The position numbers and the translations under genes were made by a program. From an uncultured Eubacteriales bacterium (GTDB lineage: Bacteria > Bacillota > Clostridia > Christensenellales > Aristaeellaceae): a DNA stretch of 37,048 nt. Positions 13,024 through 33,640 of this stretch are shown here, in pieces; the stretch's first letter is position 1; each line of letters begins with the position of its first letter. The notes under the pieces were generated by a model that ran no database searches, was not told where the DNA came from, and saw only the letters and a list, made by a program, of their open reading frames with translations. The stretch spans positions 8,966-46,013 of the forward strand of contig CADCJO010000022.1 in NCBI GenBank assembly GCA_902801765.1, written 5' to 3'.

Positions 13024-13243
13024 TAGTTCTAATACTAAACTCAAGCTAAAAATGTATCAGATTTGGGATGGATTTTACGCCGTGGCTAAGCTGAATGGAG
13101 GGAGGCGTAGCAGCGCTACGTTGACATAGTTTTAGATTGAGTTTAGTATAAGCTCTAAGTTCTCAGTTCTAAGCTGAATGTTCGTTTATCTTTTTTTCCT
13201 TAGAACTTTGAGCTTGGAACTTAGAACTTGAAACTTAGAACTA
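13024..13243. repeat. Heptamer-built hairpin element A (split by a miniature element)
   Basis: Left arm: TAGTTCT at 13024-13030, then (after the inserted element at 13033-13148) AAGCTCT 13150-13156, AAGTTCT 13157-13163, CAGTTCT 13164-13170, AAGCTGA 13171-13177. Right arm: AGAACTT 13202-13208, TGAGCTT 13209-13215, GGAACTT 13216-13222, AGAACTT 13223-13229, GAAACTT 13230-13236, AGAACTA 13237-13243. The arms are reverse complements in register, with strict 7-nt periodicity on both sides of a T-rich loop. The element fills the gap between pyrR and the LeuB-like gene and ends 24 bp before the latter. Confidence 0.8.
13033..13148. mobile_element. 116-bp miniature inverted-repeat element, copy 1
   Basis: The ends are inverted repeats matching at 18 of 19 positions (TACTAAACTCAAGCTAAAA at 13033-13051 against TTTTAGATTGAGTTTAGTA at 13130-13148). 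TAA occurs immediately outside both ends (13030-13032 and 13149-13151), consistent with a 3-bp target duplication. Removing the element plus one TAA restores the heptamer register of the surrounding element A. Inside is a small hairpin CGTAGC-AGC-GCTACG. No coding capacity is seen. A second copy lies at 36263-36387. Confidence 0.75.
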
Positions 13244-13267
13244 TATTACAACAAAGGATGATGCACC

Positions 13268-14209
13268 GTGCGCGCAAAAATCATGCTGCTTTCCTCTACG
13301 GCGCAGGATGAAATCAACGCCGCTTATGCCGAAAAAATCCTCATTGATCTGTCCGCCGCCTTTGATCACACCTTTTCCATGCGGCAGGACAGGATCGGGG
13401 AAAAGGTGAAGGCCGCAGGCGGCGAAAACTTGACGGACAAAACGATCGACGCCTGTCTGAGCTGCCAGGCGGTGTTTGTTTGCGACGCGAACGCGGACGG
13501 GCTGCAGGAGCTGTATGACGCGCTGAACCTGCCGATGCTGGTGCGCTCCTTCTGCGTGCCCGAGGTGCTGTGCGGGCGGCACGAAAAACCGGTGAACCTG
13601 TATGTCGGTTCGGTGTTCTCGATGGATGAGGACACGCTGCGTCAGGCCATTCATTCATCCTTCAGTCTGGCCCAGGAAATGGATGTGCGGCTGTGCCATT
13701 GCGCGCCGACGGGAAAAAGCCAGGCCGATTGGACGGCGGCTATCCGCGTGCAGGAGACTGCTTTCCCCCAGGTGTCCGCCAGCGCGATGACCGCGCCGGA
13801 AGCCATCCGCGGCATGATCACCTCCCCGGAACGGATGGGCATGCTGCTCTGCCCGCCTTATGCCGGAAGCATCATGCTGTCCGCCGGGACCGCGCTGTGC
13901 ACGCATCCCAATATTATCCATGATTTCGCGTTCGATGAATCCATTGGCGTATATACCCCGGTGCTGCCGCCCGACCAAAGCGATGTAGGTCCCTTTGCCG
14001 CGGCACTGGCGGTGGCGAAGATGCTGCGCTGCTCCCTGCATCTGAGCAAGGAAGCGGCCTGTCTGGAAGCGGCGCTCAGCAACGTGATCGTGGGCGGCTG
14101 GGAAACAAAGGAGGACGGCGGCGCGCTTTCCGGGATGGACGTGGTGGAGCTCATCGGCGAACAGATCGCCATGGCGGGCGAGCTGATGAATAAGTCGGGC
14201 ATCGCTTAA
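13268..14209 (+). CDS. Degenerate isocitrate/isopropylmalate dehydrogenase-like protein
   Basis: 313 aa. The order of segments follows the LeuB/Icd fold: an N-terminal strand, GGENLTDKTIDACLSCQAVF (compare the family's Lp..tl..c.daVL), YVGSVFSMDEDTLRQAIHSS at ~112 (compare ytr.Ei.Riar.AF), SPERMGMLLCPPYAGSIMLS at 186-205 (compare P..fDVivt.N.fGDIlSD) and GPFAAALAVAKMLRCSL at 241 (compare ANP.A.IlsaamML). The catalytic and metal-binding signatures are lost: the VDKANVL position reads CAPTGKSQADW (145-155), GDILSD reads AGSIMLS, and HGSAPDIAG reads PPDQSDVG. The family is thus recognised by pattern only and dehydrogenase activity is doubtful. GTG start at 13268 with AAAGGA upstream. The next gene is 10 bp downstream. 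Confidence 0.6.
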   Translation: MRAKIMLLSSTAQDEINAAYAEKILIDLSAAFDHTFSMRQDRIGEKVKAAGGENLTDKTIDACLSCQAVFVCDANADGLQELYDALNLPMLVRSFCVPEVLCGRHEKPVNLYVGSVFSMDEDTLRQAIHSSFSLAQEMDVRLCHCAPTGKSQADWTAAIRVQETAFPQVSASAMTAPEAIRGMITSPERMGMLLCPPYAGSIMLSAGTALCTHPNIIHDFAFDESIGVYTPVLPPDQSDVGPFAAALAVAKMLRCSLHLSKEAACLEAALSNVIVGGWETKEDGGALSGMDVVELIGEQIAMAGELMNKSGIA

Positions 14210-14219
14210 GGGGAAAAAG

Positions 14220-15086
14220 ATGTCTTTATTTTTGAGCGCCTTTTACTTTCCGGGGGAAGAAGCGGAATCCGATTTCATGTTTGGCCTGAAAACCACGTAC
14301 GATCAGTCGGTGTATCCCTACGGCGTTTTGCCGAAGGCGGGCCTGAACGAAATCATTTTCCGCCCGGTCACGATCCTTTACGGCGGCAACGGCAGCGGGA
14401 AAAGCACTGCCCTGAACGTGATTGCCGAAAAGCTGCGCCTGAACCGCAGCAGCGCTTACAACCGCTCCCGTTTTTTCGAGAACTATGTGGACAATTGCCG
14501 GGCCACCTGGGAAGAAGCCATTCCCCGGGGAAGCCGCATGATCACCAGCGACGATGTGTTCGACATGATGCTGGATATCCGCGCCCTCAACGAAGGCATC
14601 GACCGCAAACGCGAAACGCTGAGCGAGGATTATTACGCGCTCAAGCGCGAGCGATTCCAGGTCAAATCCCTGGATGACCTGGAACACCTGCAAAGAATCA
14701 ACCAGGCCCGCAGCAAAACCTTCAGCCGGTTTATCGCCGGCGAATCCGGAAAAAGCGTCCGGGAACGCTCCAACGGGGAAAGCGCCCTGCTGTACTTCCA
14801 GAGCAGGATCGAAATGGACACCCTCTGCCTCCTGGATGAACCGGAAAACAGCCTGAGCCCGGAAAACCAGCTGATCTTAGCGGATTTCCTGGCGGAGTCC
14901 GTCCGCTACTGCGGCAATCAGCTCATCATCAGCACCCATTCTCCCTTCCTTCTGGCCCTGCCCGGCGCGAAAATCATTGACCTGGACAATCATTCCCGCA
15001 TCGTCGGCAGCTGGACAGAGCTGAAAAACCCCAGGGTGTACTTTGATTTCTTCAAAAAACACGCCGCCGAGTTTGAGGAAGATTGA
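14220..15086 (+). CDS. Stand-alone ABC-like AAA ATPase
   Basis: 288 aa soluble ATPase. Walker A GGNGSGKST is at residues 55-63, an ABC-like signature equivalent SNGESALLYF near 183, Walker B LCLLDEPENSLSPENQ near 202, and a switch histidine in IISTHSPFLLALPG. A charged helical insert (EGIDRKRETLSEDYYALKRE, residues 122-141) sits between Walker A and the signature, resembling a short version of the coiled-coil in RecF/SMC-type ATPases. This is the AAA_21/AAA_15-type architecture found alone or with a nuclease partner in OLD-like systems, but no nuclease or TOPRIM gene is adjacent. Function unknown. It follows the LeuB-like gene by 10 bp with RBS AAGGGGAAA. Confidence 0.8.
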   Translation: MSLFLSAFYFPGEEAESDFMFGLKTTYDQSVYPYGVLPKAGLNEIIFRPVTILYGGNGSGKSTALNVIAEKLRLNRSSAYNRSRFFENYVDNCRATWEEAIPRGSRMITSDDVFDMMLDIRALNEGIDRKRETLSEDYYALKRERFQVKSLDDLEHLQRINQARSKTFSRFIAGESGKSVRERSNGESALLYFQSRIEMDTLCLLDEPENSLSPENQLILADFLAESVRYCGNQLIISTHSPFLLALPGAKIIDLDNHSRIVGSWTELKNPRVYFDFFKKHAAEFEED

Positions 15087-15201
15087 TGTTTTTCAGGAAA
15101 CTTTTTTTGTTTTTTTGGATTTAAGGGGTAGCGCAGACGGGATGATTATGGTAAAATACAATGTGGCATAACTTTTATGCTTTTTGGAGGTAAATTACAG
15201 G

Positions 15202-16269
15202 ATGAATCGATTGGAAAAAATGTTCCGGGCAGCGGGATTGGAACCGAACGAAGGCGTACTGATCCATAAGCCGTCCAACATATTTTATCTCAGCGGCTAC
15301 ACCGGGGAAGGCCTGCTGGCGGTGGGTCCCGGCTTCCAGGCCATCATAACCGACTTCCGCTACACCGAACAGGCGGAACGCCAAGCGCCGGGGTTTGAGG
15401 TGCTGATGGTGGAAAAGGGCGTCAGCCACGCCAAGCTGGCCGCAAAGGTGTTCGCCGAGCACGGCGTCAAGGCCGTCCGCTACGAAGACGACCAGGTGAC
15501 TGTCCGTTCCTTTGAAAGAATCAAACAGGACATTCCCGGCGTGGAATTTTCTCCCCTGAACGGCGCGCCCGAAAAGGTCCGCCGCATCAAGGACGAAAAA
15601 GAACTGGCGTTGATCGAGGAAGCCTGCGACATTTCCTGCAAAGCGCTGGACGTTGTGCTGGGCAAGATTCAGCCCGGCATGACCGAAAAGCAATTGCAGC
15701 TTCTGCTGGATTACACCATGCTGGAGCTGGGCGCGGACGCTCTGGCCTTCAATACCATCGTGGCCTCCGGCGTGAACGGCTCCCTGCCCCACGCTATCCC
15801 CAGCGACAAGAAGCTGGAAAAGGGCGAAATGATCACGATGGACTTTGGCGCAAAGAAGGGCGGCTACTGCGCGGACATGACCCGCACCGTCGCTCTGGGC
15901 CAGCCCAGCGCCGAAATGAAAAAGATTTACGACACCGTGCTGCTGGCGCAGGAAACCTGCGAAGCCATGCTGGCTCCCGGCAAATGCTGCTTTGACATTG
16001 ACACGGAAGCCCACAGCATCATCGACGCCGCCGGTTACGCCGGCCGCTTCGGCCACGGCCTGGGCCACAGCGTGGGCATCGACATTCACGAAGAGCCCCG
16101 CCTCTCCCAGCTGTGCCGCGACATCCTGGAGCCCGGCACCACCATCACCGTGGAACCCGGCATCTACGTGCCCGGCTTGGGCGGCGTGCGGATCGAAAAC
16201 ACCTGCGTCGTCACCGAAAACGGCGGACGCACTTTAGTACATGCACAAAAGGCGCTGCTGATCCTGTGA
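15202..16269 (+). CDS. pepP: Xaa-Pro aminopeptidase (M24B)
   Basis: 355 aa. An N-terminal creatinase-like domain (residues 1-125) precedes a pita-bread metallopeptidase domain. The five metal ligands can be placed: Asp in [16 protein letters not shown] (two Asp), His in [15 protein letters not shown], Glu in [13 protein letters not shown] and Glu in [10 protein letters not shown]. Such enzymes remove an N-terminal residue before proline and in Clostridia sit directly upstream of efp, as here (46 bp gap). I chose ATG 15202, which has TTGGAGG 10 nt upstream; a TTG in frame at 15184 lies within that RBS and is unlikely. Symbol assigned by family. Confidence 0.88.
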
Positions 16270-16315
16270 TCGGCCCCTTATGCAAATAGACCAACAAGAA
16301 AATGGAGGAATTACA

Positions 16316-16873
16316 ATGATTACTGCTGGCGATTTCAAAAAGGGCATCACCATCGAATGGGACGGCGGCGTGTGGAACATCGTGGATTTCCAGCACGTGA
16401 AGCCCGGCAAGGGCGCTGCCTTCGTGCGCACCAAGATTAAGAACGTCATGACCGGCGCCGTGGTGGAACGCACCTTCAACCCCACCGACAAAATGCCCCG
16501 CGCTATCATCGAAACCAAGGAAATGCAGTACCTGTACAATGACGGCGATCTGTACTACTTCATGGACCCCGAAACCTTCGAGCAGATGCCCCTGGGCAAG
16601 GACGCCGTGGAAGACGCCATCAAGTTCGTCAAGGAAAACATGAACGTGACCATCCGCTACTTCAAGGGCCAGGCCTTCTCCGTGGAAGCCCCCAACTTTG
16701 TTGAGCTGGAAATCACCAAGACCGAACCCGGCTTCAAGGGCGACACCGCCACCAACAACTTCAAGCCCGCCACCACCGAAACCGGCTACGAAATCCAGGT
16801 GCCCCTGTTCATCAACATCGGCGACGTGATCAAGATCGACACCCGCACCGGCGAATATCTGTCCCGCGCGTAA
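16316..16873 (+). CDS. efp: Translation elongation factor P
   Basis: 185 aa, canonical length. EF-P binds between P and E sites of ribosomes stalled on polyproline and promotes peptide bond formation. The N-terminal KOW-like domain has the loop [15 protein letters not shown], whose tip lysine (about residue 32) is the post-translationally modified residue in Bacillus-type EF-P. The OB domains include [12 protein letters not shown] and the C-terminal [23 protein letters not shown] 16316 is supported by AATGGAGGAA upstream; an in-frame ATG at 16280 would add 12 atypical residues. A 136-bp inverted-repeat element follows. Confidence 0.96.
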
Positions 16874-16892
16874 TGAGAAATTACGAAAATTT

Positions 16893-17028
16893 TCTGGGGG
16901 AAACCTCTCTTTGATACTGCATCGCACGGCCTGCGCTTCGCTTGTCCGCGCTGGAGGTTAGTAGGCGAATGGCTAAATACGCGCCATGCGTCTAAAGCCG
17001 CATGGCTAAAAGAGAGGTTTCCCCCAGA
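16893..17028. repeat. 136-bp stem-loop element with perfect 20-bp inverted ends
   Basis: TCTGGGGGAAACCTCTCTTT at 16893-16912 is the exact reverse complement of 17009-17028. Inside, GCCATGCG (16983-16990) pairs with CGCATGGC (16999-17006), giving a second perfect 8-bp hairpin. It lies between efp and the CD1247-like gene. No T-run follows, so it is not a standard terminator. No open reading frame is evident inside. It may be a palindromic intergenic repeat or a small non-autonomous element; only one copy is in this window. Confidence 0.75.
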
Positions 17029-17112
17029 CCCCTTTCCGAGAAACCCATAAATAAAACGTAAATCAAAATGATTATCCCAACAAGCAGCGTTAAAACACTG
17101 AAGGAGGTTCCC

Positions 17113-17532
17113 ATGAGCAATCTGAGCGATCGGGTATCCTATCTGAAGGGTCTGGCGGAAGGCCTGAAGCTGGACACGGAAAAAAGCGAAGGCAAACTGA
17201 TCGAGAAAATTCTGGAAGCGCTGTCCGATATTACCGCTGAAATCGATTCCCTCCGGGAAGACCATGACGACCTGAGCTCCTACGTGGAAGCCATCGACAA
17301 TGATCTGGGCGACCTGGAAGACGTGGTGCTCGGCGACGACGAGGATGAAGATTTTGACGATGAGGACGAGGACGAAGAAGACGACGATGGACTGGTGGAA
17401 TACACCTGCCCCCACTGCGGCGAGGAAATGACCTTCGAGGTGGATTCCTTCGACTTCGACGAGGATTACCTCTGCCCCAATTGCCATCAGCCCCTCTTCC
17501 CCGAAACCCCGGACGAGGACGACGAAGAATAA
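17113..17532 (+). CDS. CD1247-like acidic zinc-ribbon protein
   Basis: 139 aa. The N-terminal 60 residues are helical (LSDRVSYLKGLAEGLKLD) and match the CD1247 N-terminal domain family. A long acidic stretch (residues 75-95, nearly all Asp/Glu) leads to a C-terminal zinc ribbon with CPHCGEE and CPNCHQPLF (two CxxC). It resembles small RNA polymerase- or ribosome-associated proteins in composition, but its function is unknown. It is commonly found downstream of efp in Clostridia, and that neighbourhood is kept here. RBS AAGGAGG precedes ATG 17113. Confidence 0.8.
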   Translation: MSNLSDRVSYLKGLAEGLKLDTEKSEGKLIEKILEALSDITAEIDSLREDHDDLSSYVEAIDNDLGDLEDVVLGDDEDEDFDDEDEDEEDDDGLVEYTCPHCGEEMTFEVDSFDFDEDYLCPNCHQPLFPETPDEDDEE

Positions 17533-17551
17533 TCTGTTTCTTTCCCATGAA

Positions 17552-17579
17552 CCGCCCGCAATCGCGCGGGCGGTTTTTT
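17552..17579 (+). terminator. Intrinsic terminator after the CD1247-like gene
   Basis: CCGCCCGC (17552-17559) pairs with GCGGGCGG (17566-17573), followed by six T residues. Confidence 0.9.
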
Positions 17580-17649
17580 GCAGACGCATTTTCAAAACCA
17601 GCGTTTTGTGTTATACTTTGCAATGAAAAGCGCCGGGTTCCCTTTGGAT

Positions 17650-17678
17650 TTGACAAATCCGCCAAATGGCGGTATATT
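17650..17678 (+). promoter_or_regulatory. Sigma-A-type promoter of the ppi-zapA-U32-mutS2 group
   Basis: Perfect TTGACA at 17650-17655, 17-bp spacer, TATATT at 17673-17678. The spacer contains a small CCGCC/GGCGG palindrome that may be coincidental or an operator. Confidence 0.75.
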
Positions 17679-17740
17679 ATAGGAAATCAGGGCAGAATCT
17701 CCATCCTGGCTAATCAAACGATATGTGGAGGATAACGGCA

Positions 17741-18265
17741 ATGAGTGAAGTTTTTCATCCGACTTTTGTGATCAAGCTGGAAAGCGGCGGCGAAATGAAG
17801 GGCGAATTATATCCCGAATACGCGCCCCAATCCGTGGGCAATTTCGCGTCCCTGGCCAACAGCGGTTTTTATGACGGGTTGATTTTCCACCGGGTCATTC
17901 CCGGCTTCATGATCCAGGGCGGCTGCCCCAAGGGCACCGGCACCGGCGGGCCCGGCTATTCCATCAAGGGCGAGTTCGTTCAGAATGGCGTGCAGAACCC
18001 TCTCCGGCACACCTACGGCGTGCTGAGCATGGCCCGCGCCATGCATCCCGATTCCGCCGGCAGCCAATTCTTCATCATGACCAGCAATTCCCCCCACCTG
18101 GACGGCGCTTATGCCGCCTTCGGCAAGGTGCTGGAGGGCATGGAATACGCCGACCAGATCGTGAACGTGAAGCGGGACCGCATGGATAAGCCGCTGGAGC
18201 CCCAGGTCATCGCTTCCATCCGCGTGGACACCCAGGGAAATTACTATCCCTTTAATCAATTATGA
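17741..18265 (+). CDS. Cyclophilin-type peptidyl-prolyl cis-trans isomerase
   Basis: 174 aa cytosolic cyclophilin. Diagnostic segments: NFASLANSGFYDGLIFHRVIPGFMIQGG (containing the catalytic FHRV arginine), GGPGYSIKGEF, LSMARAMHPDSAGSQFFIM and YAAFGKVLEGMEYADQIV. The enzyme accelerates proline isomerisation during protein folding. ATG 17741 is preceded by GGAGG at good distance; the frame could begin earlier at 17723 but without an RBS. The stop overlaps the zapA start by 4 bp, so it leads a translationally coupled operon. Confidence 0.94.
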   Translation: MSEVFHPTFVIKLESGGEMKGELYPEYAPQSVGNFASLANSGFYDGLIFHRVIPGFMIQGGCPKGTGTGGPGYSIKGEFVQNGVQNPLRHTYGVLSMARAMHPDSAGSQFFIMTSNSPHLDGAYAAFGKVLEGMEYADQIVNVKRDRMDKPLEPQVIASIRVDTQGNYYPFNQL

Positions 18266-18564
18266 TGCTGCCTAAGCGTGAACGCACCTACACCCTCCGT
18301 GTCGCCGGGAAGGATTACACCATCACCAGCGCCGACGCGCCGGAGCATGTGCGGCGGATGGGCGTGTATGTGGATCGGAAAATCGCCGAAACTGCTTCCT
18401 CCGGTTTTGTCAGCCGGGAGAACGCGGCGATCATCACCGCCCTGTCCCTGGCAGACGAGCTGATTACCGCTCAGGACGATAACACCCGCCTGCGCCGGGA
18501 ACTGCTGGAAGCGAGGCAGGCGTTAAAGCAAAAACAGGAAACAAATCATGCCGATGAATCTTGA
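18262..18564 (+). CDS. zapA: Cell division protein ZapA
   Basis: 100 aa. ZapA pattern: an N-terminal strand pair (RTYTLRVAGKDYTITS), APEHVRRMGVYVDRKIAE, then a long C-terminal coiled-coil (ALSLADELITAQDDNTRLRR onwards). ZapA promotes FtsZ filament bundling at the division ring. The ATG overlaps the cyclophilin stop by 4 bp and its own 3' end overlaps the U32 gene by 17 bp. The order zapA, U32 peptidase, mutS2 is common in Bacillota. Confidence 0.88.
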   Translation: MMLPKRERTYTLRVAGKDYTITSADAPEHVRRMGVYVDRKIAETASSGFVSRENAAIITALSLADELITAQDDNTRLRRELLEARQALKQKQETNHADES

Positions 18565-20890: not shown

Positions 20891-20971
20891 AGGGAGAGTT
20901 TGATTGTAGAGATGGATCATTTCCGTTTCTGTGGCCGACAATCCTTACACACTTATTTGGGGGTATGAACC

Positions 20972-23323: not shown

Positions 23324-23448
23324 GTGATAGGAGAGAGGCGTCAGAAGTCAGGAGTTATATAGTCAAAACATTTACCGCAAGTTGGGCTTAGGCTTATCGA
23401 AAACGCTTTATAACTCCTCACTCCTATCTCCTAACTCGATTGCACTCC
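23322..23448. repeat. Heptamer-built hairpin element B
   Basis: Left arm: GATAGGA 23326-23332, GAGAGGC 23333-23339, GTCAGAA 23340-23346, GTCAGGA 23347-23353, GTTATA 23354-23359. Right arm: TATAAC 23409-23414, TCCTCAC 23415-23421, TCCTATC 23422-23428, TCCTAAC 23429-23435, then TCGATTG and CACTCC. The right arm read backwards gives GTNAGGA units that pair with the left arm in 7-nt register around a ~49-nt loop. It starts at the mutS2 stop codon and ends about 24 bp before the response-regulator start. Confidence 0.75.
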
Positions 23449-24161: not shown

Positions 24162-24165
24162 ACTG

Positions 24166-26479: not shown

Positions 26480-26494
26480 AAAAGGAGTTTTACT

Positions 26495-27673
26495 ATGCAG
26501 TATCGGAAAGATAAGTACGGTAATCCCATTTCGGTTTTAGGCTACGGCTGTATGCGCTTTTCCACCAAAGCGGGCCGCATCGATCTGGAGAAAACGGAAC
26601 AGGAAATTATGGCGGCGATTGACGGCGGTGTGAATTACTTCGACACCGCTTATGTTTATTCCGGTTCCGAAGCGGCGCTGGGCGAAATTCTGAAGCGCAA
26701 CAGCGCTCGGGACAAAATCAACATAGCCACCAAGCTGCCCCATTATCTGGTAAAGAACGCCGAGAGCATGGAAAAATATTTCCAGGAGCAGTTAAAACGC
26801 CTGCAGACCGATCATGTGGATTATTACCTGATGCACATGCTTACGGATGTAAAAACCTGGGAGCGGTTAAAGGCGCTGGGCGTTCAGGATTGGATCGAGG
26901 AGAAAAAGAAAACCGGCGCCATTCGCCAGGTTGGCTTTTCCTATCACGGCAATTCGGATATGTTCTGCCAGCTGGTGGACGCCTATGATTGGGACTTCTG
27001 CCAGATTCAGTATAACTACATGGACGAGCATACCCAGGCAGGCGTAACGGGCCTTCGGCACGCAGCGGAAAAGGGGCTTCCGGTGGTGATCATGGAGCCT
27101 TTACGCGGCGGCAAGCTTGTAAGGAACCTGCCGCCCGAAGCAGTCAAAGCCTTTACCGATTATCCGGTAAAGCGCAGCCCCGCCGAATGGGCGTTCCGCT
27201 GGCTGTGGAACCAGAAGGAAGTCACCTGCGTGCTGTCCGGCATGAACTCCATGGAGATGCTGACCGAGAACCTCCGCGCCGCCGACGACAGCCGGATCGG
27301 TACGCTTTCCGACAGCGACCATGCCCTGCTGAAACAGGTGTCCGAGGCCATCAACGCCAAAATGAAGGTGGGCTGCACCGGCTGCCGCTACTGCATGCCC
27401 TGCCCGCAGCACGTGGATATCCCCGGCGCGTTCGCCGCTTATAACCGCGTGTTTACTGAAAACAAGCTTGCCGGTCTGCGGGAATACTTTATGTGCACGG
27501 GCCTGCGCAAAAACTCCACAGGCGCCGGCAACTGCGTCCAATGCGGCAAGTGTGAAACCCACTGCCCTCAGCAAATCCCCATCCGGAAAATGCTCCAGGA
27601 CGTGAAGAAGGAGCTGGAAGGGCCGATCTACAAGGTCGGGGTGAAAGCCATCAAATTGGTGATGAAATACTGA
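26495..27673 (+). CDS. Aldo/keto reductase with C-terminal 4Fe-4S ferredoxin domain
   Basis: 392 aa. The AKR barrel (residues 1-275) has GYGCMRFS, the catalytic Asp/Tyr in YFDTAYVYSGSE, Lys in IATKLPHY, and His in DYYLMHML. The C-terminal extension carries two cysteine sets, CTGCRYCMPCPQHVDIP and CVQCGKCETHCPQQIPI, typical of 2x[4Fe-4S] ferredoxin modules. This family is abundant in anaerobic Clostridia and couples carbonyl reduction to ferredoxin-type electron flow; substrate not known. RBS AAAGGAG precedes ATG 26495. Its stop shares a base with the start of the next gene. Confidence 0.88.
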   Translation: MQYRKDKYGNPISVLGYGCMRFSTKAGRIDLEKTEQEIMAAIDGGVNYFDTAYVYSGSEAALGEILKRNSARDKINIATKLPHYLVKNAESMEKYFQEQLKRLQTDHVDYYLMHMLTDVKTWERLKALGVQDWIEEKKKTGAIRQVGFSYHGNSDMFCQLVDAYDWDFCQIQYNYMDEHTQAGVTGLRHAAEKGLPVVIMEPLRGGKLVRNLPPEAVKAFTDYPVKRSPAEWAFRWLWNQKEVTCVLSGMNSMEMLTENLRAADDSRIGTLSDSDHALLKQVSEAINAKMKVGCTGCRYCMPCPQHVDIPGAFAAYNRVFTENKLAGLREYFMCTGLRKNSTGAGNCVQCGKCETHCPQQIPIRKMLQDVKKELEGPIYKVGVKAIKLVMKY

Positions 27674-28620
27674 TGCGGATATACTTTGCTCCCCTGGAAG
27701 GGCTGACCGACGCTATTTACCGCCGGGTGCATCACGCAACGTTCGGCGGGGTGGCAAAATACTTTATGCCCTTTATCAGCCCGTCGTCCTCCCTGTCCTT
27801 TACCAGCCGTCAGCAATCGGACATCGACCCGCGCGAAAACGCCGGGGTTCCCGCCGTGCCGCAGATACTGTGCAAGGACGCCGGGCTGTTTTTGGAAATG
27901 GCAAAGCTTCTCCGGGACGCGGGCTATACGGAAGTCAATCTGAACCTGGGCTGTCCCTCCGGCACGGTGACCGCCAAAGGAAAAGGGGCGGGGATGCTGA
28001 AGGCCCCGGACGCGCTGGCCCGGTTTCTGGATGAAATCTACGCCAAGTCTCCCCTGCCGGTGTCGCTGAAAACCCGGTGCGGTTACGAATCCATTGACGA
28101 ATGGCCAAGACTGTTGGACGTCTTTTTATGCTATCCCGTTCACGAATGGATTTTGCATCCACGCACCTATCGGGAGTTTTACGGCGGCACGCCTCACCGC
28201 GATTTGTTCCTGGAAGCAGCACAAAAAGCCCCTTTCCCGGTGATCTTCAACGGGGATCTGTTCCGCGCTGCAGAATGCCGGGAAATGAGCCGTTTTGATT
28301 TGATGCTGGGGCGGGGGCTGGCGGTCAACCCTGCTTTGGCGCAGGAAACGCAGGGAGGGGACAGGCTGACGATAGAATCTCTGCGTCTTTTCCATGACCG
28401 CTTATACCGGGAGTACCTCAAATGGTGGCCTGAGCATGCCGTGGTCGGACGGATGCACGGCGTGATGTATTATCTCATGCAGGCGCTGGACTGTCCCGCT
28501 CCGGCAAAGCGGGCGCTCAGAAAGTCCTCCGGTGTGGATGAATATGCCGACGCGGCCTGCCGCGTATTCGCGGACAGCGTCCTTCTGCAGGACATTTGTT
28601 TTACCCCGCCCAAGCATTGA
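27673..28620 (+). CDS. dus: tRNA-dihydrouridine synthase family protein
   Basis: 315 aa FMN-dependent TIM-barrel enzyme. It starts IYFAPLEGLTDAIYRR, has VPQILCKD, the catalytic cysteine in EVNLNLGCPSGTVTAKGKGA near residue 94, SLKTRCGY, WILHPRTYREFYGG and FNGDLF. Dus enzymes reduce specific uridines in tRNA D-loops. The position modified cannot be assigned; the shorter form resembles the DusC/DusB-like group in Clostridia. The ATG (27673) overlaps the upstream TGA by one base, so the pair is coupled. Confidence 0.9.
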   Translation: MRIYFAPLEGLTDAIYRRVHHATFGGVAKYFMPFISPSSSLSFTSRQQSDIDPRENAGVPAVPQILCKDAGLFLEMAKLLRDAGYTEVNLNLGCPSGTVTAKGKGAGMLKAPDALARFLDEIYAKSPLPVSLKTRCGYESIDEWPRLLDVFLCYPVHEWILHPRTYREFYGGTPHRDLFLEAAQKAPFPVIFNGDLFRAAECREMSRFDLMLGRGLAVNPALAQETQGGDRLTIESLRLFHDRLYREYLKWWPEHAVVGRMHGVMYYLMQALDCPAPAKRALRKSSGVDEYADAACRVFADSVLLQDICFTPPKH

Positions 28621-28671
28621 TGCGTTTATGCGCGGGCGGTTTGATCTTCTCCTGCCAGGCAGCGGATGCTT

Positions 28672-28983
28672 TCAGCAGCCTTTTCTTCCGCTTCGGTGAT
28701 CTTCAATGGAACATGCGCCTGGCGTGCCGTATTCGATCAGGCCGGCGTCCGCCGGATCGATGGAAATCCTGCCGTCCTCAAACACGAAGGCGGGAATGCC
28801 TACATCGCCGATTTCCTTGCAGTGATCGAACACGGGGCTGCTGTCCCGAAGGCGGGTAAAAGCGCTCATGTTCCGGATGTTCTCGCCAATGTTGATGTAT
28901 TCAAATTCGTCTTCCCGTCCTTTGATCTGCTCGTGGACATAATCGCAATAGGGGCAGGTTGGCATTCCGTAAATCTTGATCAT
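28672..28983 (-). CDS. Glutaredoxin-like thiol-redox protein
   Basis: 103 aa. A thioredoxin-fold domain begins MIKIYGMPTCPYCDYVHEQI with the redox CPYC at residues 10-13, followed by FEYINIGENIRNMSAFTRLR and the cis-proline in VGIPAFVFEDG. The tail GTPGACSIEDHRSGRKGC adds two cysteines. I start at ATG 28983, which fits the family and has GAAGGAAG upstream; the frame is open to 29037 but that part looks unrelated. Another frame stays open from about 28743 to 28641 (minus strand) with normal codon use, so a frameshift near the 3' end cannot be excluded. The gene converges with dus, 51 bp apart. Confidence 0.78.
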   Translation of the reverse strand: MIKIYGMPTCPYCDYVHEQIKGREDEFEYINIGENIRNMSAFTRLRDSSPVFDHCKEIGDVGIPAFVFEDGRISIDPADAGLIEYGTPGACSIEDHRSGRKGC

Positions 28984-29078
28984 GTTTGCAGCTTCCTTCT
29001 CTTCTTCATGTATCGCATGCTGATCTGACGGATGCACGGTATTTGGGGGAGAAACGGTGTCTCCCTTTCAGCAGTCTT

Positions 29079-29107
29079 ATTATACATGAAAAAAGCGCTG
29101 TTGTACA
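29079..29107 (-). promoter_or_regulatory. Putative promoter of the glutaredoxin-like gene
   Basis: On the minus strand TGTACA (29107-29102) and a perfect TATAAT (29084-29079) with 17-bp spacing, about 95 bp upstream of the start codon. Confidence 0.5.
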
Positions 29108-29256
29108 CGATTATCAAAAGAATGAATCGGAAGTTCCGGTTTGCGGCTTGATAGAACAGACCGTATCATTTCAGCCGTCACTGCGCGGCTGCATTCAGCC
29201 CATTTTTTTCCAACACTGCGATCGGGAAACGGATAGGCACGATGATGCGATCCGCA

Positions 29257-29306
29257 GCAAGCGGAGAGACGATTTTGAAGCAAGCGGAGAGATGATTTTG
29301 AAGCAA
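29257..29306. repeat. Two 23-bp tandem repeats upstream of polA
   Basis: A 23-bp unit beginning GCAAGCGGAGAGA occurs at 29257-29279 and 29280-29302, differing at one base (C/T), and a third partial unit GCAA follows. It lies in the 408-bp gap between the divergent glutaredoxin-like gene and polA, about 30 bp upstream of the polA -10. The rest of that gap (29108-29256) contains no gene I can support. Confidence 0.8.
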
Positions 29307-29310
29307 TTTC

Positions 29311-29339
29311 TTTTCATTTCCCGTGAATCGTGTTATAAT
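29311..29339 (+). promoter_or_regulatory. Putative promoter of polA
   Basis: A perfect TATAAT at 29334-29339 preceded by a weak -35 (TTTTCA, 29311-29316) at 17 bp. It sits 52 bp before the polA ATG. Confidence 0.5.
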
Positions 29340-29391
29340 AAAATGAAATTTTATCCCTGTCGGAGAATGCTCCGGCTGACGAGGTGATTGT

Positions 29392-31932
29392 ATGCGGGAA
29401 ACGCTGCTGGCTGTGGACGGAAACAGCCTGATGCACCGGGCTTTTTACGCCGTTCCCCTGCTGGATACAGACGGCATGTATACCAACGCGGCCCACGGTT
29501 TTTTGGCGATGCTGTTCAAGGCCATGCAGGAGGTGTCGCCGCGGTATATTGCCGTCGCCTTTGACCTGCCAACGCCCACGTTCCGCCACACCGCTTACGC
29601 GGATTACAAGGCGGGCCGCCGCGCCATGCCGGAGGAGCTGCGGCCCCAGTTCCCGCTGATCAAGGAAATATTGGGCGATATGAAGCTGGGTGTGCTGACC
29701 AGCGAAGGCTATGAGGCTGACGACATTCTGGGCACGCTGTCCCGAAAATGCCGGGAAAACGGGCTGGACTGCGTGCTGCTCACCGGCGACCGGGACGCGC
29801 TGCAATTGATCGGCGATGGGACAAAGGTGCTGTTCACCCGCAAGGGCATCACGGAAAGCACGCTGTTTGATTCCGCGGGCGTGAAGGAAGCCTTCGGCGT
29901 CACCCCCGAGCAGGTGACGGACTGGAAGGGCCTGATGGGCGACGCCAGCGACAACATTCCCGGCATTCCCGGCGTGGGTGAAAAAACCGCCGTCAAGCTG
30001 CTCAATGAATACGGCACGCTGGAAAACGTGCTGGCTCATGGAAATGAAATCAAGGGCAAGCTGGGGGAAAAAGTGCGGGACAACGCAGAGCTAGCGGCTT
30101 TCAGTAAAGACCTGGCCACCATCCGGCCCACCGCGCCGATTGCATTTGATCTGAACGCGTTTGATATTTCTCATATGTCGGAAGGCCTGCCCACCCTGCG
30201 CAAGTATAAGCTGAACGGCATCGCCGAGAGGCTTGGCAAAATGGCTTCCGGCGCGGAGACTGCCGCCGAATCGGACGAGGAACAGGCGGAGTTTGCCGTG
30301 GAAATCCTGCGCAGCGCGGATGAAATCTCCGCCTTCCTGCGTTCCATCCAGGGACAGAAAGCAGCGCTTCACGTCTCCCCCACCCGCCTGACCATTGCCG
30401 GGCCGGGACGCTTGGGCGAAATCCAATTGCAGCAGGATATGCTGTCGGAAGGTCTGCTGCCCGATGAAGCCTGGCAGGCGCTGAAACCGCTGCTGTCCGA
30501 AAAGCTGTACGTCCATGACGGAAAAGCCCTGCTGCATCTGCTGGCCGATATGAATCTGCCCTTGCCCCAGTTCGCCTGGGATACCATGCTGGGGGCATAC
30601 TTACATAATCCCCAGGAGAAATCCTACGCTCTGTCCCAATTCGCCCGGAATGACGCCGCGGGTGTGCTGGTCTTGGCAGAAAAGCAGCAGAAGCAACTGG
30701 AAGCGGAGGGCATGACCGCCCTCATGCGGGACATTGAAATGCCTCTTTTGTACGTGCTGTTCGACATGGAACAGGCGGGCTTCCAGGTGGACGGACAGGT
30801 GCTCTCCGAACTCGGAAAAGAATTCACCCGGCAGGCGGAGGAATTAAAGGAAGAAGTGTACAGGCTGTCCGGCGTTTCCGGCTTCAACCTGAACAGCACC
30901 CAGCAATTGGGCAAGGTGCTCTTTGAAACCCTGGACCTGCCCCACGGCAAAAAGACAACAAGAGGCTATTCCACCGACGCGGACACTTTGGAAAAGCTGG
31001 TGGATCTGCACCCCTGCATTGCTCCGATTTTGAAATACCGCCAGGTGGTGAAGCTGAACAGCACCTACATCGACGCGCTGCTGCGCAAGATGGACGCTAC
31101 AGGCAGGGTGCACAGTTCCTTCGATCAGACCGGCACCGCCACGGGCCGCATTTCCTCCAGCGAACCGAATTTGCAAAACATCCCCGTCCGCACAGAGATG
31201 GGCCGGGAGATCCGCAAGGCGTTCATCACCAAGCCCGGCTGCGTATTGGCCGACGCGGACTACAGCCAGATCGAGCTGCGGGTGATGGCCCACTTCTCCG
31301 GCGACCCCGCCATGGTGGACGCCTTCCAAAAAGGCCAGGACGTTCACACCCGCACGGCGGCGGAGGTCTACGGCGTGCCCATGGAGGAAGTGACGCGGGA
31401 AATGCGCTCCAGCGCCAAGGCGGTCAACTTTGGCCTGGTCTACGGCATCAGCGAATTCGGCCTGGCCCGGAACATCGGGGTCAGCCGCAAGCGGGCCGGG
31501 GAATTCATTGCCCGATACTTTGACCGCTATCCCGGGGTCAAGAAATTCATGGACGAAGCGGTGAAGGAGGGCTATGAAAAGGGCTACGCCGTCACCATGA
31601 TGGGAAGGCGGCGGCAGCTGCCGGAGCTCAAAGCCAGCAACGCCAACACCCGGAACTTCGGCGAGCGCGCCGCCATGAACACGCCCGTCCAGGGCACCGC
31701 GGCGGATATCATCAAGCTGGCCATGGTGCGGGTGCACGACGCGCTGAAAAAAGAGGGCTTACAAGCCCGGCTGATTTTGCAGGTGCACGACGAGCTGCTG
31801 ATCGAAGCGCCCAAGGAAGAAGAAGAAAACGTCACCCGCATCCTGCGGGAGTGTATGGAGCAGGTATACCGGCTGTCCGTCCCGCTGGTGGCGGAGGTTA
31901 AAACAGGAAACAGCTGGTATGAAACAAAATAA
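29392..31932 (+). CDS. polA: DNA polymerase I
   Basis: 846 aa. The N-terminal 5'-3' exonuclease/FEN domain (1-290) shows VDGNSLMHRAFYA, AFDLPTPTFRH, GYEADDILGTL, LTGDRDALQLI and LMGDASDNIPGIPGVG. The middle region (300-470) has the 3'-5' exonuclease fold position but no DxE motif where FxFDTET would be, so proofreading is probably lost, as in many Bacillota Pol I. The polymerase domain has SSEPNLQNIPVRTEMGR, motif A DADYSQIELRVMAHFSGD, motif B RSSAKAVNFGLVYGISEFGL and motif C LQVHDELL. It fills gaps and removes RNA primers. ATG 29392 has ACGAGGTG upstream. coaE follows, as in many Bacillota. Confidence 0.96.
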   Translation: MRETLLAVDGNSLMHRAFYAVPLLDTDGMYTNAAHGFLAMLFKAMQEVSPRYIAVAFDLPTPTFRHTAYADYKAGRRAMPEELRPQFPLIKEILGDMKLGVLTSEGYEADDILGTLSRKCRENGLDCVLLTGDRDALQLIGDGTKVLFTRKGITESTLFDSAGVKEAFGVTPEQVTDWKGLMGDASDNIPGIPGVGEKTAVKLLNEYGTLENVLAHGNEIKGKLGEKVRDNAELAAFSKDLATIRPTAPIAFDLNAFDISHMSEGLPTLRKYKLNGIAERLGKMASGAETAAESDEEQAEFAVEILRSADEISAFLRSIQGQKAALHVSPTRLTIAGPGRLGEIQLQQDMLSEGLLPDEAWQALKPLLSEKLYVHDGKALLHLLADMNLPLPQFAWDTMLGAYLHNPQEKSYALSQFARNDAAGVLVLAEKQQKQLEAEGMTALMRDIEMPLLYVLFDMEQAGFQVDGQVLSELGKEFTRQAEELKEEVYRLSGVSGFNLNSTQQLGKVLFETLDLPHGKKTTRGYSTDADTLEKLVDLHPCIAPILKYRQVVKLNSTYIDALLRKMDATGRVHSSFDQTGTATGRISSSEPNLQNIPVRTEMGREIRKAFITKPGCVLADADYSQIELRVMAHFSGDPAMVDAFQKGQDVHTRTAAEVYGVPMEEVTREMRSSAKAVNFGLVYGISEFGLARNIGVSRKRAGEFIARYFDRYPGVKKFMDEAVKEGYEKGYAVTMMGRRRQLPELKASNANTRNFGERAAMNTPVQGTAADIIKLAMVRVHDALKKEGLQARLILQVHDELLIEAPKEEEENVTRILRECMEQVYRLSVPLVAEVKTGNSWYETK

Positions 31933-31944
31933 ACTGGAAATTGA

Positions 31945-32076
31945 GATCAGAGGCAGGTTAAGAGTGCAGAGTACAGAGTTCAGAGTACAGATTCATTTGT
32001 GTTTCCACACGATCATTCGCATTGTGGAAAAACAAGATGATCTGTACTCTGCCCTCTGAACTCTGTACACTGATCC
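31945..32076. repeat. Heptamer-built hairpin element C
   Basis: Left arm: AGAGTGC 31961-31967, AGAGTAC 31968-31974, AGAGTTC 31975-31981, AGAGTAC 31982-31988, AGATTC. Right arm: GTACTCT 32044-32050, GCCCTCT 32051-32057, GAACTCT 32058-32064, GTACACT 32065-32071, then GATCCCT. GATCAG near 31945 also pairs with CTGATC at the far end. The loop holds its own hairpin TTTCCACA/TGTGGAAA. It occupies nearly the whole polA-coaE gap and stops just before the coaE RBS. Confidence 0.8.
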
Positions 32077-32091
32077 CTTCAAGGTGATGAA

Positions 32092-32691
32092 ATGAGCAAA
32101 TATGTGATCGGCCTGACCGGAGGCATCGCCTGCGGCAAGAGCAATTTATCCAAAGCACTCAAGGCAAACGGCGTCCCGGTGATCGACGCGGACGAAATCT
32201 CCCGCGCGCTCACGGCAAAAGGCGGCGCCGCGCTGCCCGCCATCCGGGAGCGATTTGGGGACCGGGTATTCGACGGGGACGAGCTGAACCGCCGGGCATT
32301 ATCGGACATTGTGTTCAGCGATCCCAAGGAGCGCGACGCGCTGAACGGGATTCTGCATCCCATGGTGCTGGATGAAATCCACCGGCAGATGGACGCCATC
32401 GACGGGCCGGTGGTGATGGACGTGCCGCTGCTGTACGAAGTGGGCATGGATGCCTGGTGCCAGGAAATCTGGTGCGCTTACGTGCCGCAAAAGGAGCAGG
32501 TGCGCCGCGTGCGCAAGCGGGGCGCGATCACCTACAAGGAAGCCCTGCGCCGCATCCATTCCCAGATGCCGGTGATGGAAAAGCGCCGCCGCGCCGATCA
32601 CGTCATTCGCACGGAGGGCTCCAAGGAAGAAAGCGCCGCCATCGCGCTCGGGTTATGGCGGAACGCAGTGGAGAAGCTGGAGCGCGGCTAA
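32092..32691 (+). CDS. coaE: Dephospho-CoA kinase
   Basis: 199 aa. CoaE phosphorylates the ribose 3'-OH of dephospho-CoA, the final step of coenzyme A synthesis. The P-loop GLTGGIACGKSNLSKAL is at the N-terminus, then VIDADEISRAL, the LID/CoA region ALNGILHPMVLDEI, VMDVPLLYEVGMDAWCQEIW and VRRVRKRGAITYKEALRRI. RBS AAGGTGATG directly follows repeat element C, so the RBS lies at the foot of the hairpin. Confidence 0.93.
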   Translation: MSKYVIGLTGGIACGKSNLSKALKANGVPVIDADEISRALTAKGGAALPAIRERFGDRVFDGDELNRRALSDIVFSDPKERDALNGILHPMVLDEIHRQMDAIDGPVVMDVPLLYEVGMDAWCQEIWCAYVPQKEQVRRVRKRGAITYKEALRRIHSQMPVMEKRRRADHVIRTEGSKEESAAIALGLWRNAVEKLERG

Positions 32692-32693
32692 GC

Positions 32694-32791
32694 CATGCTT
32701 GGAGCGTTCAGAGCGGAGTGCAAATCGTTTGGATTTGTTGAGAATATCTGTATTTCTTTAGAAGCATGAACTTTCATCCGCCGCTCTAAAC
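32694..32791. repeat. Imperfect hairpin in the coaE-slt gap
   Basis: GTTCAGAGCGG (32706-32716) pairs at 10 of 11 positions with CCGCTCTAAAC (32781-32791). CATGCTT (32694-32700) also matches AAGCATG (32763-32769), but this would cross the main stem. A 7-nt periodicity is not evident, so I do not group it firmly with elements A-D. The gap 32692-32815 holds no gene. Confidence 0.5.
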
Positions 32792-32815
32792 ACTTTATGA
32801 TTCAGGAGTTCCATC

Positions 32816-33541
32816 ATGAACGATATTCCAACCCCATCCGTTCCCTATTCCGCGCCGCCGCCCCAGCGCAACCGCCGTTCGGGACGCACCCAGGGCCGCC
32901 ATGCCAAAGCGAAAAAGCCTCCCTTGATTACCTGGTGGCAGGCCTTGATTCTAGCCGCGCTGGTCGGTGTGATCGTGTATCAGGCGAGCCAATTGACCCA
33001 GGCAAACGCGCGGCTGAAAGCGCTTTACGAGACGCGGGAGCAGGAGCGGCAGCGTTACGAAAACACCGTGCAGGCCCACAAGCCGAAGTACCGCGACCTG
33101 ATCGAGCGGTACGCATCGGAATATAATCTGAACCCCGCCTACGTGTCGGCAATCATCAAGCAGGAAAGCGACTATAACCCGCGGGCGGTGAGCAGCAAGG
33201 GTGCCATGGGTCTGATGCAGTTTATGCCGAACACTTTTGACTGGGTCGCCCCCAACTGCGGCATCAAAAAGACGGATCTGGACGCGGTGTATGAACCGGA
33301 AAACGCCATTAAAATGGGCTGCTATCTGCTGCGCTATATCATCCGCCAGATTGGCAGCGACGACCCCATCCTGGTCGCCTGCGCGTATCACGCGGGCTGG
33401 GGCACCGTGCCAAGCTGGATTCAGAATTATTCTTCCAATGGACAAACATTGAAGGTGTCCGAAATTCCCAAATCCGATACGCAGACCTACGCGGGAAGAG
33501 TGGTGAACAGCTATGCGATCTATTTACAGCACTACTATTAA
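32816..33541 (+). CDS. Membrane-anchored lytic transglycosylase (GH23)
   Basis: 241 aa. A basic, proline-rich cytoplasmic N-terminus (residues 1-38) precedes one transmembrane helix (WWQALILAALVGVIVYQASQ, ~41-60) and a coiled segment. The SLT domain spans ~98-235: LIERYASEYNLNPAYVSAII with the catalytic Glu in KQESDYNPRAVSSKGAMGLM, then QFMPNTFDWVA, AIKMGCYLLRYI and VACAYHAGWGTVPSW. The enzyme cleaves peptidoglycan glycan strands, giving anhydromuropeptides. Here it would be fixed in the membrane facing the wall. RBS CAGGAG precedes ATG 32816. Confidence 0.9.
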   Translation: MNDIPTPSVPYSAPPPQRNRRSGRTQGRHAKAKKPPLITWWQALILAALVGVIVYQASQLTQANARLKALYETREQERQRYENTVQAHKPKYRDLIERYASEYNLNPAYVSAIIKQESDYNPRAVSSKGAMGLMQFMPNTFDWVAPNCGIKKTDLDAVYEPENAIKMGCYLLRYIIRQIGSDDPILVACAYHAGWGTVPSWIQNYSSNGQTLKVSEIPKSDTQTYAGRVVNSYAIYLQHYY

Positions 33542-33543
33542 AA

Positions 33544-33640
33544 AAGAGTCAGAGAGTACAGAGAATCAACAGCAAAAAGCGAGGGAGCATAACGCGTCGA
33601 CCATATCCTCTGTACTCTGTACTCTGTACTCTGAATTCCT
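33544..33640. repeat. Heptamer-built hairpin element D
   Basis: Right arm: three exact tandem GTACTCT units at 33612-33618, 33619-33625 and 33626-33632, then GAATTCC. Left arm: AGAGTC, AGAGAGTAC and AGAGAATC at 33545-33567, the reverse-complement word with irregular spacing. It uses the same word as element C 1.5 kb upstream. The element lies between the lytic transglycosylase stop and the mature part of the oligopeptide-binding protein, and overlaps the open frame of the latter. Confidence 0.75.

Follow-up and report, generated by a model that had tools for sequence, protein, structure and literature searches.

The hairpins reported here are less novel than had been supposed, as convergent pairs of heptamers have been published for Xanthomonas and paired arrays for Geobacter. 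In the parts of the papers on which we draw, the GGGAATC heptamers of Xanthomonas form 70 convergent pairs in Xcc and 75 in Xac, are intergenic, have the nearer of their two flanking ORFs on the 5' side (28 nt away on average) and mostly have co-directional gene neighbours (PMC4692102). The "global regulator binding sites" of Geobacter metallireducens, classes 1–3, are described as three to five tandem units of ~7–9 nt, mostly with a partner array on the other strand, the distance between the two varying, and they fall into several families within one genome; class 3 (MTYCTGA) is heptameric, class 1 sites have insertion sequences at a fixed distance, and the families were, in the text available, not recognised in G. 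sulfurreducens, its sister species (PMC2700814). At a single locus, the P6b stem of the Nostoc trnL intron is built of class I (TDNGATT) or class II (NNTGAGT) heptamers, one word having repeatedly given way to the other there, and its unpaired loops are the more variable part (PMC4476775). The TAACTGA repeats of Beggiatoaceae and cyanobacteria are intergenic arrays (2–6 units in BOGUAY) with a patchy distribution across phyla and a position near gene boundaries (PMC4679880). As far as the sections drawn on extend, the papers on scattered bacterial heptamer repeats leave their origin open.

REP and REPIN elements lie near stop codons and are mobilised by RAYT, and we know of none with heptamer arrays. 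They are short, dispersed intergenic palindromes of high copy number (PMC3116915, PMC3733652), REP having a GTAG or CGTC tag beside a palindrome of 20–40 bp (PMC3733652). The DNA analysed here, hereafter the window, is a stretch of 37,048 nucleotides from a rumen bacterium.

Results

An earlier note had proposed that four gaps in the window share a two-arm heptamer architecture, and all four do have convergent heptamer arrays in two arms (Table 1). Its description of the first locus as a single hairpin from 13024 to 13243 must be corrected, as the hairpin there is preceded by an unrelated dispersed element. With the latter as query, 43 BLAST alignments, a figure that includes the query and counts several pieces per copy, were obtained in 1.21 Mb of the organism's own sequence, and one in 0.74 Mb of the congener G019, whose DNA is ~85% identical to that of the own genome. 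The further claim that each locus has a different word did not survive the genome-wide search, in which the AGAGTAC and AGAACTT types recurred and only the word of locus 2 was rare, its two genome matches both being at locus 2 itself.

Table 1. Heptamer hairpins and adjoining dispersed element in the window (flanking genes named from Pfam).
Feature	Coordinates	Strand	Word	5' arm	3' arm	Neighbours or remarks
Dispersed palindromic element, not a heptamer hairpin	13031..13148	.				BLAST copies
Heptamer hairpin 1	13149..13242	.	AAGTTCT/AGAACTT	~13149-13173	~13199-13242	GTG start codon downstream at 13268
Heptamer hairpin 2	23327..23437	.	AGTNAGG/AGGAGTN	~23327-23358	~23410-23437	MutS2-type gene / response regulator gene
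Heptamer hairpin 3	31957..32073	.	AGAGTAC	~31961-31995	~32041-32073	polA / coaE
Heptamer hairpin 4	33545..33633	.	AGAGTAC	33545-33568, short and imperfect	~33606-33633, clean	SLT-domain gene / SBP_bac_5 gene

The heptamer hairpins are real, and the period of seven is special. In 434,389 bases from this genome, a scan blind to the word returned 47 arrays of period 7, together with 15 inverted pairs, whereas periods of 4, 5, 6 and 8–12 gave no inverted pair in the same bases. The concern that shuffled sequence might show a similar periodicity was not borne out, with no inverted pairs and 2, 2 and 0 arrays in three Markov-1 randomisations. When the same bases were scanned for hairpins first, 22 of 63 had a best period of 7 at ≥0.6, all other periods remaining below 0.6. 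The tandem heptamer arrays are mostly intergenic, as in the STRR/SSR-7 class, and in two samples, 825 kb of the own genome and 391 kb of G019, an inverted partner lies at most 260 bp away from 79 of the 100 non-coding arrays.

According to gene calls from a home-made codon model, 40 of 58 elements lie between co-directional genes, six between convergent and six between divergent genes, and six overlap a called gene. A stop codon precedes the element by 34 nt or less in 37 of the 40 co-directional cases, and elements are fewer between divergent genes (6/52) than are gaps of 100 nt or more (88/428). Because of the co-directional genes and the position right behind a stop codon, the elements are probably transcribed, as had been suggested for the window loci. 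The part of that suggestion concerning the next start codon is less secure at locus 4, where an ORF is open through the hairpin from 33513 and the start downstream is therefore uncertain.

Two word types turn up at dozens of unlinked loci, and also in several species. At up to three mismatches, three tandem copies of AGAGTAC matched the genome 71 times and three of AGAACTT 143 times, the control giving none in either case. The idea of a shared architecture without shared sequence is correct in that the words differ, but some sequence is common to the elements: loop ends have a W-rich motif, and the 5' arm (with margins of 7–8 nt) contains AGT in 97 of 100 elements and ACT in none of the 100 from the two genome samples. 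We claim this AGT rule for the genus only. Of 29 congeners, 15 lack the AGT-period-7 pattern. Among 398 Bacillota, 125 genomes matched an AGT-period-7 pattern, with at least 10 matches in 42 and more than 100 in six (the last two counts tallied by hand from the table of pattern matches), and the backward control exceeded the pattern in seven of the 42 and was raised in others. Hairpins were called in 10 of 20 stretches around such matches in other Bacillota, at a looser threshold (0.55) and with several calls doubtful; the other 10 had none. Words without AGT also exist, namely GATTTGG at L189 and AATGCAG at L254. AGT as a universal anchor was rejected on account of the high backward control and of words without it, including GGGAATC of Xanthomonas.

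The elements are ~90–130 bp long and consist of two convergent arrays, mostly of three to four heptamers each, around a loop that measures 45–52 nt in 22 of 39 members of the AGAGTAC family. In the two large families the arrays have 2–6 units; four are present in the 5' arm of 27/47 AGAGTAC and 25/43 AAGTTCT elements, and the most frequent number in the 3' arm is three (21/47) and four (28/43), respectively. Unit number is thus mostly confined to a narrow range, yet one AGTAGGC array has ~11 units, and unit-sized gaps occur between orthologous elements. Taking the best of three registers, the variable base of one arm matched that of the other at 0.568 in 47 AGAGTAC elements, identical to the value for permuted arms, and at 0.614 against 0.640 permuted in 43 AAGTTCT elements. 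This result indicates that one arm was not templated on the other, and an origin of the second arm by inverted duplication or template switching was rejected on the same ground. We also withdrew an apparent avoidance of perfect stems (AGAGTAC, 30/116 in one register), an effect that the register search removed; in the stems as found, 65/129 and 66/116 variable bases are complementary.

Most loops are mutually dissimilar, including those of the apparently young AGAGTAC family. When 96 loop cores were compared after trimming, similarity was clearly above background in two pairs from non-orthologous loci and marginal, at a score of 14, in two more pairs; the others were unrelated. Loops shared by unlinked loci with unrelated flanks are those of L213 and L215 (score 19) and of L252 and L257 (18), where 6000 shuffled draws never exceeded 12; L335:17236 reaches a marginal 14 with L252. 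A cluster that includes L369 and L011 stood out in untrimmed loops; in another comparison it scores 13, the 99.9% background being 12, and it is absent from the trimmed-loop list of scores of 13 or more. It was withdrawn.

Comparison with G019 covered 28 distinct orthologous gaps in which at least one of the two genomes has an element, classed by eye and then by script. Nine have the same word and nine different words (eight by script and one mixed case read as different), eight are empty in the other genome, a presence/absence polymorphism like that of MITEs, and two fall elsewhere. The pattern withstood the comparison with relatives, which might have shown ordinary diverged sequence instead. 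The AGAGTAC family is involved in seven of the eight empty-gap cases, and AAGTTCT accounts for five of the nine same-word cases. In the different-word gaps a hairpin was called on both sides in six of nine, the loops of the two genomes are unrelated, and several elements lie, in a by-eye reading, within ~10 nt of the same flank position. From the window itself, the mutS2 gap of hairpin 2 holds an AGAGTAC hairpin in G019 instead, and hairpins are lacking from the G019 polA-coaE gap (14 nt) and slt gap (54 nt). Presence, absence and other words all occur in the last two gaps across congeners, and polA and coaE overlap, leaving no gap, in 31 of the 44 loci listed.

The nine same-word pairs differ at 31/328 aligned positions in the arms and 105/408 in the loops, a contrast that is partly circular since arms were defined by pairing in one genome; the arm rate is below the loop rate in seven pairs and higher in two. 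Alignment gaps are equally frequent in arms (43/371 columns) and loops (54/462). Target-site duplications were unreadable in four filled/empty comparisons, the flanking intergenic DNA being too diverged.

Several sources of the elements were considered. RAYT (Y1_Tnp, PF01797) gave no match in the one genome searched, which is 81% complete, the control being positive in 5/14, and a RAYT/Y1 transposase was rejected as mobiliser on that basis. RVT_1 (PF00078) is present in 6/29 congeners, and is absent from 7/11 element-rich congeners in all (70 or more AGT-period-7 matches), the own genome being one of the seven and three of them being >90% complete. A reverse transcriptase source (telomerase-like, DRT10) was rejected, as RVT_1 is not associated with element richness. 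Among the 21 unpaired arrays in the 825 kb and 391 kb samples, we noticed neither a gene between distant convergent arrays, as an autonomous copy would have, nor an array pair around a transposase gene. With phage in view as a source, two pattern scans for candidate viral contigs returned 22 and 23 stretches, and a hairpin scan of these 45 found elements with many words in 12.

Discussion

The heptamer hairpins form families, each with its own word and in many copies, all in one orientation; they are present or absent at orthologous sites, where an array of another family may stand instead, and are placed just behind stop codons. We favour, at a probability of about 0.55, the reading that they are several families of short non-autonomous interspersed repeats, MITE- or REP-like, which spread by insertion of whole elements. 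It is based on their copy number against zero controls, the specificity for period 7, the frequent pairing of arrays, presence/absence in gaps, loop sharing at unlinked loci, the mismatch contrast between arms and loops, and the proximity to stop codons. Whole elements would have been inserted in successive waves, AAGTTCT being the older family, mostly shared, and AGAGTAC the younger, with mobilisation in trans by a putative enzyme. Once in place, they would be co-transcribed stem-loops at 3' ends or between genes of an operon, and from this position we infer that they may function as RNA stems. Selection on the stem, through mRNA stability or the coupling of translation, may keep the arms, or an array-binding protein may do so, the loop being left to drift. 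Where a gap has different words in the two genomes, there would have been re-insertion into a few tolerant gaps, or a newer family would have replaced an old element.

Neither RAYT nor RVT_1 was found in this genome (81% complete), which counts against whole-element insertion, and mostly dissimilar loops are unexpected if copying was recent. That arms have alignment gaps as often as loops do, together with the smaller loop sharing, weakens this reading and strengthens one in which the hairpin stays in its gap and its arms are rebuilt to another heptamer word, by slippage, template switching between arms or ectopic gene conversion with other elements. Such in-place rebuilding, which we regard as rather unlikely, would account for the nine different-word gaps, the similar flank positions and the unrelated loops within a family, and at 10% independent occupancy the binomial probability of at least 9/19 is 3.6e-5 (8e-4 at 15%), a calculation that assumes equally tolerant gaps, which they are not. 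Against it, the agreement of variable bases between arms is no higher than after permutation, and swapped gaps with unrelated loops fit replacement of the element better than conversion of its arms only. The original proposal of a mechanism that makes or converts arrays agrees with the word changes at orthologous gaps; that nothing is copied is not supported, given the wide recurrence of two words, the shared loops and the eight empty gaps. Somewhat less probable still is that what is conserved is architecture and not sequence, a stem of ~4 convergent heptamers (AGT anchor and variable base in each word) being maintained at a gap while the word is exchanged; selection or a conversion machinery would then read the period of seven and not the letters, and one general sequence-free element would take in the stem of the Nostoc trnL intron, the array pairs of Xanthomonas and Geobacter and the Clostridia hairpins described here.

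By analogy with Geobacter metallireducens, for which IHF/HU has been proposed (PMC2700814, in the part drawn on), paired arrays could bind an oligomer of a nucleoid or global regulator protein on DNA. The limited variation in the number of units and in the spacing of the arms suits such sites, as do the fewer substitutions in arms than in loops, but placement behind stop codons and depletion between divergent genes do not, several words would need several proteins per cell, and the appearance of whole elements in new gaps would be unexplained, so that we consider protein binding improbable as the explanation and an added function at most. Far less credible is a telomerase-like process in which a reverse transcriptase, copying a short RNA template, extends the two 3' ends at a break by heptamers and leaves convergent arrays with a fresh filler loop on each occasion, even though DRT10 produces tandem-repeat DNA (PMC12632851, in the sections drawn on) and such a process would explain the invariable orientation of words relative to the loop, family-specific words, unmatched variable bases and unrelated loops; its difficulties are the distribution of RVT_1, loop lengths that look too uniform for filler DNA and the two loops common to different loci. 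It is equally hard to regard the hairpins as ordinary intrinsic terminators or chance repeats. They can form stems behind stop codons, but direct inspection of the sequence found no T-run after the 3' arm at any of the four window loci, where a G+C-rich stem followed by a T-run is thus not seen, an Rfam search of the window returned no family at gathering score, and inverted pairs were absent from shuffles and other periods.

This genus offers what the cited sections do not: several word families per genome, related species of which some carry the elements and some do not, and orthologous gaps, in the tens, in which elements are shared, absent or replaced. The origin, spread and word change of heptamer repeats become testable by comparison of close strains, and the probably transcribed stems behind stop codons are a set for testing effects on operon expression.

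Comparison with known systems

REP and REPIN elements are mobilised by RAYT, which was not found in this genome (81% complete). TAACTGA repeats are, in the parts of the account used here, direct repeats, mostly upstream of start codons and with one inverted case (PMC4679880), whereas the arrays described here form inverted pairs. The Xanthomonas GGGAATC repeats share with our elements the convergent array pair in many copies, found here for 79/100 arrays, but have a single G-rich word, for which a G-quadruplex is discussed (PMC4692102), against several words per genome here. They also lie mostly between the same genes in both species, and a change of word at one site does not feature in the sections consulted (PMC4692102), in contrast to the 9/28 gaps with different words reported here. 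Closer to those word swaps is the proBA gap of Geobacter, which holds another repeat in the sister species (PMC2700814). The Nostoc trnL stem, cited in the earlier note as a precedent, is an apt one, being heptamer-built like the hairpins here and having two alternative words; it is one locus in a group I intron, with no genome-wide family described in the portion of the source used (PMC4476775), whereas the hairpins of this genus are dispersed.

Word Families Among the Heptamer Hairpins

A word-agnostic scan of 434,389 bases, comprising 20 stretches and the window, found 47 arrays and 15 inverted pairs at period 7 and no inverted pairs at any of the periods 4, 5, 6 and 8–12. The shuffled-sequence check proposed by an earlier note on this DNA, carried out as three Markov-1 randomisations of the scanned sequence, yielded none, versus the 15 in the real sequence. 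The two-arm heptamer architecture which that note had described at four gaps (loci 1–4) was borne out by convergent arrays in all four. At locus 1, for which it had given 13024–13243, the heptamer hairpin stands as one part of a composite, the other being an unrelated palindromic element (Table). Its proposal of a different word at each locus did not hold: AGAGTAC in three copies with ≤3 mismatches had 71 matches genome-wide and AGAACTT in three copies 143 (control 0 for both), while the locus 2 word matched only at its own two arms, indicating populous families plus a rare word. Without the use of any word, 100 elements were found, 53 in 1.21 Mb of the window's own genome and 47 in 0.74 Mb from G019, which among the congeners has the closest coaE (95% protein identity; DNA ~85% identical over aligned parts). 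They comprise AAGTTCT (26 own, 11 G019), AGAGTAC (15, 24), AGTAGGC (8, 3), GTAGGA-type (2, 8), AGTNAGG (1, 0) and other-word (1, 1) elements.

Table. Positions of the window hairpins, other repeats and related observations
Feature	Position	Observation
Locus 1 hairpin (AAGTTCT/AGAACTT)	window 13149–13242	Neighbours (Pfam): phosphoribosyltransferase and Iso_dh-domain genes
Locus 2 hairpin (AGTNAGG)		Neighbours (Pfam): MutS2-type gene and response regulator
Locus 3 hairpin (AGAGTAC)		Neighbours (Pfam): polA and coaE
Locus 4 hairpin (AGAGTAC)		Neighbours (Pfam): SLT transglycosylase and SBP_bac_5 genes
SBP_bac_5 frame	window 33513–33657	Open through hairpin 4 from ATG 33513, which overlaps the upstream gene; alternative in-frame TTG start 33657, 3' of the hairpin
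Separate dispersed ~120-nt palindromic element	window 13031–13148, ~36260–36387; L364:13453, L068:2970, L224:5452, L238:1934, others	
Second intergenic palindrome family	window 16892–17027; L070:12529, L071:2535, L065:3792, others	(C)TGGGGGAAACCGCTCTTTG plus reverse complement; many copies
Further palindromic repeats	L070:9836, L081:7813, L082:4820	TGTCATCCCGAGCG-type
The same, in heptamer-hairpin loops	L068:7757, L353:10761	As if inserted
Interrupted arrays	L068:17274–17365 vs L199:13098–13431	A different repeat (GTAGGGGCGGAT...) interrupts G019's GTAGGA-type arrays; this different-word gap thus also acquired a second kind of element
GATTTGG hairpin	L189:4494–4638	Pyrinomonadaceae MAG (another phylum); chance find in the polA-based locus set
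AATGCAG hairpins	L254 (IMGVR_UViG_3300009529_001865, filed as viral), five places	Loops 3–12 nt; compact variant of the same design

Anatomy and Placement of the Elements

The 5' arm, taken with margins of 7–8 nt, contains AGT in 97 of the 100 elements and ACT in none. Arrays of the two large families have 2–6 recognised units, mostly 3–4, the mode being 4 except in AGAGTAC 3' arms, where it is 3. Loops of the AGAGTAC family range from 9 to 94 nt, with 22 of the 39 at 45–52 nt, and in 36 loops the ends, read inward, carry a weak W-rich motif (T-N, about five A/T, G) beyond which similarity ends. Each heptamer word has one free base, and its match between arms (best of three registers) was no better than that between arms drawn from different elements (0.568 observed versus 0.568 for 47 AGAGTAC elements; 0.614 versus 0.640 for 43 AAGTTCT elements), so neither arm was copied from the other. 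Within the stems as found, 65/129 (AGAGTAC) and 66/116 (AAGTTCT) free bases are complementary, and therefore about half are unpaired. An inverted partner lies within 260 bp of 79 of the 100 non-coding arrays found in 1.22 Mb from the two genomes; the other 21 lack one.

The four window loci fold as RNA at -28 to -78 kcal/mol, with the additional element at locus 1 counted in the value of -78. A T-run 3' of the hairpin is absent at all four, and Rfam returned no family at gathering score over the window. The gene context of 58 elements was co-directional in 40, convergent in 6, divergent in 6 and overlapping a called gene in 6; background gaps of ≥100 nt in the same sequence numbered 264, 76 and 88 in the first three classes. 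Of the 40 co-directional elements, 37 start no more than 34 nt from the stop codon upstream, a placement that may partly result from keeping clear of the next gene's ribosome-binding site.

Turnover at Orthologous Gaps

The comparison of orthologous gaps that the earlier note had called for was possible with G019, since both flanks of 38 of the 100 elements were located in the other genome's sample, giving 28 distinct gaps. Scripted classes assigned 9 to the same word, 8 to different words, 1 as mixed, 8 as empty and 2 as something else; the mixed gap (AGTAGGC versus GTAGGA) was read by eye as different, making 9 different-word gaps. Six of these have a called hairpin in both genomes, and in three the other genome has an array without a hairpin call. 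The locus 2 gap holds an AGAGTAC hairpin in G019, and the hairpins of loci 3 and 4 are absent there from gaps of 14 and 54 nt, respectively. The AGAGTAC family looks younger than AAGTTCT, because it is involved in 7 of the 8 empty gaps and AAGTTCT in 5 of the 9 same-word gaps.

Other relatives (stretches L120–L198, from a scan covering 80 of 97) show similar variation. The polA–coaE gap carries AGAGTAC hairpins in the window and L124/L098 and AGTTGAG hairpins in L125/L102 and L139/L099; the two genes overlap in 31 of 44 congener loci among the matches listed, some genomes being counted twice. In the slt gap the word is AGAGTAC for the window, L122/L096 and L121/L097, and L136/L094 has a GGAGAGG-type array there. 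Under independent gap filling, at least 9 different-word cases in 19 would have P = 3.6e-5 at 10% occupancy and 8e-4 at 15%, values weakened by gaps being unequally tolerant.

In the nine same-word pairs, mismatches affect 31 of 328 aligned arm positions and 105 of 408 loop positions (arm rate lower in seven pairs, higher in two), and gap columns take an equal share (43/371 and 54/462). Sequence comparison thus indicates that arms are held or homogenised more than loops in sequence, but in length they are not. When 96 trimmed loop cores were compared, two non-orthologous pairs (L213/L215, score 19; L252/L257, score 18) clearly exceeded the shuffled maximum of 12, which argues that whole elements were copied at least there, contrary to the earlier suggestion that simple copying was not involved. 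Two further pairs were marginal at 14 each (L335:17236/L252 and L068:17274/L214:2006), and most loops of the young AGAGTAC family are mutually unrelated. The ~120-nt palindromic element differs from the heptamer hairpins in its conserved interior and highly identical copies; it probably represents a recent expansion, as BLAST gave 43 alignments in 1.21 Mb of own sequence (61 pieces), a count that takes in the query itself and several fragments per copy, and 1 in 0.74 Mb of G019.

Distribution, Possible Origin and Precedents

Of 29 congeners, 14 show the AGT-period-7 pattern, with 2 to 333 matches each (backward control 0–16), and the other 15 have none; a search of 60 genomes, own counted, found the AGAACTT word in 8. 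Across 398 Bacillota the pattern is patchy, with matches in 125 genomes and more than 100 in six; several of the matching genomes also have a raised backward control. In 10 of 20 stretches around matches in other Bacillota a hairpin was called, several of these calls being doubtful.

We favour, at a probability of roughly 0.55 overall, the reading that the heptamer hairpins are dispersed, non-autonomous, MITE/REP-like families, which would insert into intergenic gaps, be transcribed there and be retained through their stems or via a binding protein. As for a mobilising enzyme, no RAYT was found in the own genome (81% complete), and 7 of 11 element-rich congeners lack reverse transcriptases.

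A search by title and abstract start, with most subscription journals outside its scope, found no description of such heptamer elements in rumen Clostridia. Convergent pairs of heptamer arrays have been reported for Xanthomonas (PMC4692102), and paired arrays for Geobacter metallireducens (PMC2700814); in the trnL stem of Nostoc heptamer words replace each other (PMC4476775), and Beggiatoaceae and cyanobacteria have TAACTGA arrays (PMC4679880). The kind is therefore already known; what is new is its genome-scale form, with several words, high turnover and exchange of one word for another.
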